A stretch of 64,000 nucleotides of DNA. Origin: Hymenobacter edaphi. Its GTDB lineage: Bacteria; Bacteroidota; Bacteroidia; Cytophagales; Hymenobacteraceae. Position 1 is the first letter of the stretch. The number at the start of each line of letters is the position of its first letter. This document shows positions 11,800 to 13,064 of this stretch, in pieces. The DNA lies in assembly GCF_003258365.1 (NCBI RefSeq), contig NZ_QHKM01000001.1, positions 1,488,001-1,552,000 of the forward strand, given 5' to 3'. The notes below the pieces were generated by a model, which made no database searches, was not told where the DNA came from, and worked only from the letters and a program-made list of their open reading frames with translations. A program made the translations under genes and the position numbers.

Positions 11800-11837
11800 A
11801 AAAACAAAAAGCCCCTCTCCGGCTATCGGAGAGGGGC
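11800..11837 (-). terminator. attenuator terminator upstream of phhA
   Basis: Read on the minus strand, a perfect 11-bp stem (plus 11827-11837 with 11811-11821) and a 5-base loop are followed by TTTTTGTTTTT. It sits between the leader peptide stop and the phhA ATG, where an attenuator terminator belongs. Confidence 0.85.
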
Positions 11838-11865
11838 GAGTATGAAGCGGTTCCTGGCGGCGACG

Positions 11866-11970
11866 TTACGTCGTCTGCTCGGGTGCCGTCGCGCATACAC
11901 GACCACTGCCGAAGCCGGTGGGCTGGCAGGAGCGGTAATAATAATAGCGCGACGAAAAGCGGGTGAGCAT
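11866..11970 (-). CDS. tyrosine-rich leader peptide of phhA
   Basis: A 34-codon frame from ATG (11970) to TAA (11866-11868). It begins MLTRFSSRYYYYRSCQ, with four consecutive Tyr codons (TAT TAT TAT TAC) at codons 9-12 and Phe at codon 5, then a Gly/Ala/Thr-rich tail. It lies between a promoter-like motif and the intrinsic terminator that precedes phhA. By analogy with the his, trp and pheA leaders, a ribosome stalled at the Tyr codons would favour antitermination and raise phhA expression when tyrosine is short. The competing antiterminator hairpin was not identified by eye. Confidence 0.75.
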   Translation of the reverse strand: MLTRFSSRYYYYRSCQPTGFGSGRVCATAPEQTT

Positions 11971-11974
11971 GGGG

Positions 11975-12003
11975 CAAAGATGGGGCTTTTTTTGGCAACC
12001 CAA
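11975..12003 (-). promoter_or_regulatory. candidate promoter of the leader-phhA transcript
   Basis: On the minus strand TTGG (plus 12000-12003) is followed after 17 nt by CATCTTTG (plus 11975-11982), seven of eight bases from TAnnTTTG. The leader ATG begins only 4 nt downstream, so the leader mRNA would have little or no 5' untranslated sequence. Confidence 0.55.
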
Positions 12004-12239: not shown

Positions 12240-13064
12240 ATGAGTGCCAGTTATTATCCGGTTCATCCCTGCCTGCGCGCCGCCGTGAGCCACATCATGG
12301 TGGTGGACCTGCACTTGCCCGGCCCGGCCTACGGCCGCAGTGCCCCCTTTCCGCCCACGCCCCAGCACAGCCTCAACTTTTACCCCGGCGACGCCACCCG
12401 CAGCCGAATCGGCCAGCAAAGCTTCGCCGAGCTGCCGGCCTGCACCATCATCGGCCCGCAGACCCGCAAGGTGGACCTGGCCATGGGCACCCACCACCGG
12501 TTCGTAACGGTGGCGTTTCACCCCGGCGGGCTGTTTCGCCTGCTGCGCCTGCCCATGCCGGAGCTGCTCGACCGCCCGCTCGACGCGGCCGACGTGCTCG
12601 GCCGCGAGATACGCCAGGTGAGCGAGCAACTGCAGGAAGCCCGGCACCCGCCGGCCATGAAGCACATCGTGGAGGCCTACCTGCTGCGCAAGCTGGGGCC
12701 CGGTACGCCGGCGGGTCCGCTGGAGCACAGCGTCCGGCTTATGCTGCAGGGCAATCCGGCCGATACCATCGACAATATGGCCGCGCAGTCGTGCCTGAGT
12801 CTGCGGCAGTTCGAGCGCCGCAGCCGGGAAATCCTCGGCTATTCGCCCAAGTTCTTCGCGCGCGTCATCCGGTTCTCGCGGGCGTACCGCCTGAAAGTGC
12901 ACCAACCCCGCGCCACCTGGACTACCATCAGCCACCACTGCGGCTATTACGACCAGATGCACCTGATCCGCGACTTCAAGGAGTTTACGGGCACTACGCC
13001 CAAGCTCATCACCCAGGAAATCCTGGCCGCGCCGCTGACGCTGCAGGACGATTTGCGGCTCTAG
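12240..13064 (+). CDS. AraC-family transcriptional regulator
   Basis: A 274-residue regulator. The C-terminal third holds the two helix-turn-helix motifs of AraC proteins: LSLRQFERRSREILGYSPKFF, then ISHHCGYYDQMHLIRDFKEFTGTTP (about 185-255). The N-terminal part, with the ATRSRIG-to-FHPGGLFRLL pattern, is the sensor domain common in Bacteroidota AraC proteins (DUF6597-like). The ligand is unknown. The ATG at 12240 gives a normal length. It is divergent from the phhA leader, with 270 nt between starts, but nothing shows that it controls phhA. Confidence 0.88.
   Translation: MSASYYPVHPCLRAAVSHIMVVDLHLPGPAYGRSAPFPPTPQHSLNFYPGDATRSRIGQQSFAELPACTIIGPQTRKVDLAMGTHHRFVTVAFHPGGLFRLLRLPMPELLDRPLDAADVLGREIRQVSEQLQEARHPPAMKHIVEAYLLRKLGPGTPAGPLEHSVRLMLQGNPADTIDNMAAQSCLSLRQFERRSREILGYSPKFFARVIRFSRAYRLKVHQPRATWTTISHHCGYYDQMHLIRDFKEFTGTTPKLITQEILAAPLTLQDDLRL

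Follow-up and report, generated by a model that had tools for sequence, protein, structure and literature searches.

We propose that phhA of Hymenobacter edaphi lies downstream of a transcription attenuator through which a translating ribosome senses charged tRNA-Tyr, a reading to which we assign a probability of roughly 0.88. The locus is on the minus strand of the window, by which we mean the whole 64,000-nucleotide stretch of DNA that was analysed. In the proposed mechanism, RNA polymerase would start at the leader ATG, or one or two bases from it, and a ribosome would presumably load on the leaderless message. When Tyr-tRNA is ample, the ribosome would reach the stop codon with region 2 closed in the leader hairpin, the terminator would form and transcription would end before phhA. 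If Tyr-tRNA runs low, the ribosome would probably stall at the Tyr codons, covering region 1 and the bases right after the run; region 2 would be freed to pair with region 3, the terminator would be blocked and phhA would be transcribed. The phhA product converts Phe to Tyr, and a biosynthetic enzyme would in this way be induced by the lack of its own product.

The features of the site are collected in Table 1. The initial annotation had described a promoter-like motif followed 4 nt later by a 34-codon ORF with four consecutive Tyr codons, then an 11-bp hairpin, a T tract and phhA, and all of these were confirmed in the sequence, with four bases between the -7 box and the leader ATG and the leader's TAA at 11868-11866. 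It had also mentioned one Phe codon in the leader; Phe codons are indeed present, but there are two (codons 5 and 20). The phhA product scored 282.1 bits against TIGR01267, passing the cut-off of 264.75 of this curated phenylalanine 4-monooxygenase model, and also matched PF00351. An AraC-type gene lies upstream on the plus strand (12240-13064), pointing away, and the minus-strand terminator therefore belongs to the leader transcript and closes no upstream gene. A scan of the 2.5-kb region also gave a promoter match of the E. coli type (9 of 12 positions), located at 12205-12178. Past phhA, a gene with an LGT domain (PF01790; 10139-10984, minus strand) begins after 47 nt and may be co-transcribed with phhA by read-through. 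Two tRNA genes of equal score (57.6 bits) lie 21 nt apart elsewhere in the window, at 313-384 and 406-477 on the minus strand.

Table 1. Features of the phhA leader in the window, with the related tandem-leader loci outside it.
Feature	Position	Strand	Basis or remark
-33-like TTG element	12001..12003	-	sequence; 33 to 31 nt 5' of inferred +1 (11970)
-7-like box CATCTTTG	11975..11982	-	resembles sigmaA consensus TAnnTTTG; predicted promoter
Leader peptide ORF MLTRFSSRYYYYRSCQPTGFGSGRVCATAPEQTT, 34 codons and TAA	11866..11970	-	ATG at 11970
Region 1 CGTCGCGC, directly 5' of Tyr codons	11947..11954	-	MFE folds; partner 11894-11887
Control codons TAT TAT TAT TAC (four Tyr)	11935..11946	-	sequence, translation
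Region 2 CCGGCTTCGG, antiterminator strand	11909..11918	-	pairing and ribosome-footprint folds
Region 1 partner GCGCGACG	11887..11894	-	MFE folds; helix encloses region 2
Intrinsic terminator stem GCCCCTCTCCG/CGGAGAGGGGC, 11 pairs, perfect, 5-nt loop ATAGC	11811..11837	-	terminator scan
Region 3 CCGATAGCCGG, terminator portion pairing with region 2	11819..11829	-	duplex search
T tract TTTTTGTTTTT	11800..11810	-	sequence, terminator scan
phhA, phenylalanine 4-monooxygenase, 247 aa	11032..11775	-	TIGR01267, PF00351
Tandem Phe+Tyr leaders	L207 4735-4967	-	G000:C3, outside window
Further tandem-leader loci	L297, L298, L300, L291

A run of four Tyr codons is, on its own, at chance level. The TAY x4 pattern TAYTAYTAYTAY occurs at 7 sites in the 6.04-Mb genome, and its reverse, used as the control, at 6. 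Scanning the 2.5-kb region for terminators gave one hit against a shuffle mean of 1.7, which is not above shuffles. Since the run and the terminator are each at chance level when taken singly, the case is carried by their combination, position and conservation. The same pattern was used to look for a second Tyr leader in the genus. One of the 7 sites in the window genome is the phhA leader, and the other six lie within longer frames of 149 to 286 codons stop-to-stop, several of which run past the examined stretch. At the 10 further sites read in other genomes of the genus, no scripted terminator was found within 200 nt; seven of these sites are in short frames, one of the seven having an ATG before the run.

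Conservation of the Tyr codons and the hairpin in related genomes had been put forward as a check on the attenuator reading, and it was borne out within the genus and far beyond. phhA was found in all eight same-genus genomes searched, each time with leader and terminator. The run contains 3 to 5 Tyr codons in these leaders and the peptide after it is nearly the same; the terminator stems differ yet pair (GCCCCTCTCCG/CGGAGAGGGGC, GCCCCCGTCCG/CGGACGGGGGC and GCCCCATTCCG/CGGAATGGGGC), as expected of compensatory changes. Named close relatives carrying the leader are Hymenobacter gummosus, H. busanensis, H. jeollabukensis, Hymenobacter sp. CRA2 and Solirubrum puertoriconensis.

To cover the class, the regions upstream of 164 distinct phhA loci from genus, family, order and class searches were read. 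These are the best-match loci together with 80 picked for variety before leaders were inspected, and are no random sample; two of an original 166 (L001 and L002) were left out as the same places as L003 and L015. With a strict leader defined as a short ATG ORF having at least 3 Tyr in 8 codons, Tyr leaders were found at 77 of the 164 loci, at 69 when at least 4 Tyr were required and at 50 with at least 5, whereas dinucleotide shuffles gave means of 3.6, 0.5 and 0.1 loci, respectively. The same count made without shuffling gave 45, 12 and 2 loci for Leu and 42, 22 and 5 for Ala; the remaining amino acids were lower at the first threshold, and the maxima for any amino acid besides Tyr were 22 (Ala) at the second and 5 (Ala, Arg) at the third. 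Relaxing length and distance added five leaders (L064, L068, L070, L112 and L124) for a total of 82; at the other 82 loci, including the 8 phhA2 of the genus, no Tyr leader was found even under the relaxed rules. As tallied by family code, leader-positive loci span 16 families, six in the same order (f1, f5, f9, f14, f17 and f19, with f14 represented by the relaxed L124 alone) and the others elsewhere in the class (f39, f41, f56, f57, f58, f62, f65, f66, f70 and f84). In a second set of 80 organism-named loci, which overlaps with the first, at least 3 Tyr in 8 codons were present at 36, the doubtful L264 among them; none of the 13 named Algoriphagus phhA loci had a Tyr leader. Neither did any of eight 590-aa phhA relatives of the class, one of which (L183) has a short 3-Tyr frame that overlaps the gene start and is without a terminator. 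Family f4 (L046, L050 and L056) has a terminator in front of phhA as well as a short ORF, MAEAHSFAKSDVIKFKFLYKLI in both L046 and L050, with no enrichment in Tyr.

Between lineages the leader peptides vary and the Tyr cluster is kept (YYAYAYYAP, YYYYYYYRMMSFGMG, YHYHYYYPTVRNG, YSYYCYYYRYYRSC, MLTAANSYYYYQVPEP). This pattern bears on the idea that the leader peptide senses free Tyr or another ligand in the ribosome tunnel through nascent-peptide arrest, in the way that TnaC senses Trp. Arrest of the TnaC type is the topic of PMC8429421. The peptide following the run, CQPTGFG.GRVC.TA, is nearly constant within the genus, as an arrest peptide might be, but part of this stretch doubles as RNA required to pair, and across families the Tyr cluster alone is conserved (e.g., YYAYAYY, YYYYYYY, YHYHYYY and YSYYCYYYRYY). 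We consider arrest very unlikely, and the codons of the run to be the more probable signal for the attenuator.

The start of the leader transcript can be placed from its promoter. The -33 TTG element is part of Bacteroidota promoters. In Flavobacterium psychrophilum the sigmaA box spans -12 to -5, and leaderless messages represent 5.5% of the mRNAs of 890 CDSs, according to the available text of PMC9723704. A box at -12 to -5 places the inferred +1 at 11970 in the window. A TAnnTTTG-like box, with first and last base relaxed, was present within 25 nt at 57 of the 77 strict leaders and ended 4-6 nt before the in-frame leader ATG at 51 of them, compared to 8 of 229 control windows farther upstream. 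The leader ATG should lie at about +1 to +3 generally, and at +1 in the window, and the message should be leaderless, as far as sequence can tell.

Terminators were counted with one script that covers the last 200 nt before the gene and misses interrupted stems. The script found a terminator at 70 of the 77 strict-leader loci, 3 of the 5 relaxed ones, 10 of the 68 leader-less loci and 6 of the 14 phhA2 loci. That terminators accompany the leader in this manner (70/77 vs 10/68) argues against the leader being a separately terminated gene for a small RNA or small protein that acts in trans, with phhA transcribed from another promoter. The terminated rnTrpL of Sinorhizobium meliloti can act in trans (PMC7298713), which gives this view a precedent; however, leader and phhA remain together in many families despite the drift of the peptide, and no second TAnnTTTG-like box was seen by eye between the hairpin and phhA, where the initial annotation had asked whether transcription might start. 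Such an arrangement is, in our judgement, highly improbable, although an additional role in trans for the terminated leader RNA, besides attenuation, is possible. The leader could also act on translation or decay in place of transcription termination, for example by altering access to the phhA start. The stem and T tract form a textbook intrinsic terminator that co-occurs with the leader, and 35 nt separate the stem from the phhA start; we regard control at these later steps as extremely improbable and transcription termination as the probable point of regulation.

The leader folded together with its terminator was more stable than shuffles (z -4.63), whereas the leader fold without the full terminator was not unusually stable (z -0.81). 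A structured leader with a terminator would also suit a T-box or another riboswitch that binds tRNA or a metabolite, with the short ORF incidental. In the Rfam scan of the window, however, the gathering score was reached solely by two tRNAs, and none of six related loci gave a match at that score. Among matches up to E 10 in the leader region there was no T-box; the best below threshold were Atu_C7 (E 0.0072, 21.4 bits vs 45) and dauA (E 0.05, 26 bits vs 45). A riboswitch would also have no need of a Tyr run in frame with an ATG close to the promoter. A leader of this kind is exceedingly unlikely here compared with one that is read by a ribosome.

The competing antiterminator, which had been missed by eye, was found, and it withstood controls with shuffled leaders and swapped terminators. 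In the window, CCGGCTTCGG (11918-11909) pairs with CCGATAGCCGG (11829-11819), the latter consisting of the terminator loop and the adjoining ends of its two arms. The pairing is kept with changed letters in other lineages: CCGTTTTGG/CCAAAACGG in L038, CTCTTGGAG/CTCCAAGAG in L042, TTTCGGAA/TTCCGAAA in L041 and GATGGAATAGG/CCTATTCCATC in L141; in L008 it contains mismatches. The region 1 helix carries two compensated pairs in G007 and G004 (GTCGTAC with GTACGAC) and has mismatches in 3 of the 8 genus members (one each in G003 and G001, two in G005).

To model the ribosome, the transcript up to the terminator loop was folded at equilibrium with the ribosome footprint barred from pairing, and the measure was how many pairs are expected to join the leader middle to the terminator 5' half. 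For the window, the model predicts 13.6 such pairs when the ribosome is held at the Tyr run, 3.6 when it has reached the stop codon and 4.2 when none is present; the corresponding means over 70 leaders were 12.1, 6.2 and 5.9. The stalled state exceeded the stop state by over 0.5 pair in 61 of the 70 leaders (the reverse held in one) and exceeded the state with no ribosome in 57 (the reverse in four). Any block on upstream RNA makes some pairing available, so leaders with a shuffled middle segment served as a control. Across 36 non-redundant leaders, the stalled state gave 11.4 pairs, compared to 6.4 after shuffling (Wilcoxon p 2e-10); the difference between the stalled and the stop state was 6.1 compared to 2.5 (p 1.5e-5). 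This difference fell under the leader's own shuffle mean in 8 of the 36 (L024, L038, L044, L058, L062, L089, L129 and L139).

The match between each leader and its own terminator was assessed by cross-pairing. For all 70 leaders, own pairs averaged -20.9 kcal/mol and cross pairs -16.5, with 32 of the 70 under 5%, but this comparison is confounded by redundancy and G+C and was therefore repeated with 36 representatives, by permutation and with the composition-keeping shuffles. For the 36, the best duplex had -17.4 kcal/mol with the own terminator and -13.3 kcal/mol after swapping, and the longest Watson-Crick helix was 6.6 compared to 4.9 (own vs permuted p 5e-5, the lowest value attainable with 20,000 permutations); the result was the same for the 21 leaders left without other members of the window's family. 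Single leaders were less decisive, the own terminator beating at least 90% of the others by energy in 15 of 36. As judged from the predicted folds, the model is weak in some lineages, with stalled expected pairs of 1.2 in L062, 3.6 in L065 and about 6 in L063 and L066.

The features expected of an attenuator are present at this locus: an ORF between the predicted promoter and the gene, conserved codons for the product, a terminator and an antiterminator that excludes it. In the folding model, stalling on the control codons favours the antiterminator and completion of the peptide does not. The original reading of the layout as one of the his/trp/pheA type is supported by anatomy, conservation and antiterminator, with the regulation itself being a prediction from sequence.

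The genes near phhA and its leader speak to the role of the enzyme. In G420 and G442, a DAHP synthase gene is followed by the Tyr leader and phhA and then by an aminotransferase gene and tyrA, with the DAHP synthase and aminotransferase of G420 assigned by Pfam; in G366, similar-looking genes are ordered DAHP synthase, aminotransferase, tyrA, Tyr leader and phhA. In the window genome, the pheA-aminotransferase-tyrA operon is preceded by two tandem mixed Phe+Tyr leaders, MLTSKAQYFFSYYFYYAHA and MLRSACFFFGCYYCFYRQQRGPYCAV; the script found a terminator for the first and a hairpin was seen by eye for the second. The tandem leaders are kept in all four of the eight genus genomes that have a prephenate dehydratase match, and also in G134. 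Five further stretches in this comparison (L292-L296, from G116, G017, G086, G458 and G203) do not contain pheA and are uninformative. A Tyr-only leader of tyrA itself was absent from the stretches read, where the tandem Phe+Tyr leaders lie upstream of its operon. Codons for both amino acids thus accompany the operon for Phe and Tyr, and Tyr codons accompany the gene that serves Tyr alone, so that the control codons match the products.

A tyrA match (PF02153) over cut-off was found in 14 of 31 leader-bearing genomes. Among the 28 of at least 90% completeness, 14 had none over cut-off, and 12 of these had none at E 0.001. Leader-less genomes had a match over cut-off in 22 of 36, and a tie between the Tyr leader and tyrA loss is unsupported (14/31 vs 22/36, Fisher p 0.23). 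Within the genus, a PF00800 match was absent from G001, G003, G004 and G007, and a PF02153 match from G003; there, to judge by gene content, Tyr may be made by phhA from imported Phe. In G002:C13 (L300, L301), the match to prephenate dehydratase is divided between two open frames of 150 and 224 aa, which is either a draft error or a broken gene.

The paralogue phhA2 (L011-L018 in the genus, L078-L083 in g5) is preceded by a distinct conserved leader ORF that lacks a single-amino-acid run, plus a terminator. A Tyr leader was found at none of its 8 loci in the genus and at none of the 6 phhA2-type loci examined from g5. Translated by eye, the leader ORF in L080 is MSHQPMKQVCLSNIRPARDGVGLLCRYGS, and an antiterminator match in L078, CGGAGTCGGGCT/AGCCCGACTCCG, is perfect over 12 nt. 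Interrupted terminator stems missed by the script are plain by eye at the other phhA2 loci. In the window genome, phhA2 scores below the PhhA cut-offs (236.4 vs 247 and 229 vs 264.75), and about 3 kb separate it from a DAHP synthase gene.

Taken more broadly, these leaders may belong to an old network of leaderless aromatic attenuators throughout the class Bacteroidia, with phhA under Tyr-only leaders, pheA-aminotransferase-tyrA under tandem Phe+Tyr leaders and phhA2 under leaders of a third kind. The ribosome on a leaderless peptide gene would then be the main tyrosine sensor, and phhA would be biosynthetic and, for many genomes, the sole source of Tyr that can be recognised. We see the arguments for and against this wider picture as evenly balanced. 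On the attenuator reading of phhA, a Phe hydroxylase elsewhere classed as degradative (Shewanella phhAB) would here be a product-repressed route to Tyr, in line with the 14 of 28 well-assembled leader-bearing genomes that are without a tyrA match over cut-off. The wide conservation also offers a comparative set for the coupling of leaderless translation to transcription, in a phylum (Bacteroidota) that the available portion of PMC9723704 notes as being without Shine-Dalgarno sequences. The class of mechanism is old, namely classical leader-peptide attenuation. Four points appear to be new: that Tyr would be the signal and phhA the target, that a leader of this type would be leaderless in this phylum, and that the arrangement is so widespread in the class. 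The open-licence literature yielded no account of an attenuator responding to Tyr or acting on phhA, and an earlier prediction elsewhere is possible.

The phhA leader would work like the Rfam amino acid leaders, which we take to be his, trp, phe, thr and leu, yet no covariance-model match to these RNA families was found. The T-box with a Tyr specifier, as in Firmicutes tyrS, also senses tRNA-Tyr charging and controls a terminator. It binds tRNA directly without a ribosome, and the phhA leader is without a T-box match. The aroR leader before aroF in Corynebacterium glutamicum encodes an aromatic leader peptide with Phe-Tyr-Phe residues, acts by attenuation and, in the available part of the source, is described as unaffected by Tyr availability (PMC11802643). 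The phhA leader differs in that its run is Tyr only, it belongs to another phylum and its target is phhA rather than aroF. In S. meliloti, rnTrpL begins with the ATG of trpL and is thus leaderless (PMC7298713). The two share a leaderless leader-peptide ORF, but trpL has Trp codons, precedes trpE(G) and belongs to an alphaproteobacterium.

Within Bacteroidota, the Bacteroid-trp RNA motif is a hint of attenuation. Strong clues for leader-peptide attenuation were reported 5' of amino acid operons in F. psychrophilum (PMC9723704), and sORFs reminiscent of leader peptides in B. thetaiotaomicron (PMC7366714); the accessible excerpts of both reports name neither a Tyr leader nor phhA. In Shewanella, phhAB forms a degradation pathway under the DNA-binding regulator TyrR, and the six attenuators named in the excerpt available belong to branched-chain, His, Thr, Trp and Phe operons, not to Tyr (PMC3223726). 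The shared element is a regulated bacterial Phe hydroxylase gene, the regulator there being TyrR. In the E. coli trp, his, pheA and pheST attenuators, a short ORF containing product codons, alternating helices and an intrinsic terminator precede the structural gene. Attenuation of trp, pheA and pheST is summarised in PMC11802643. The phhA leader has in common with these systems the ORF with its run of product codons, the alternating helices and the terminator, and it is unlike them in its Tyr signal, its pterin-dependent hydroxylase target and an ATG at about +1.
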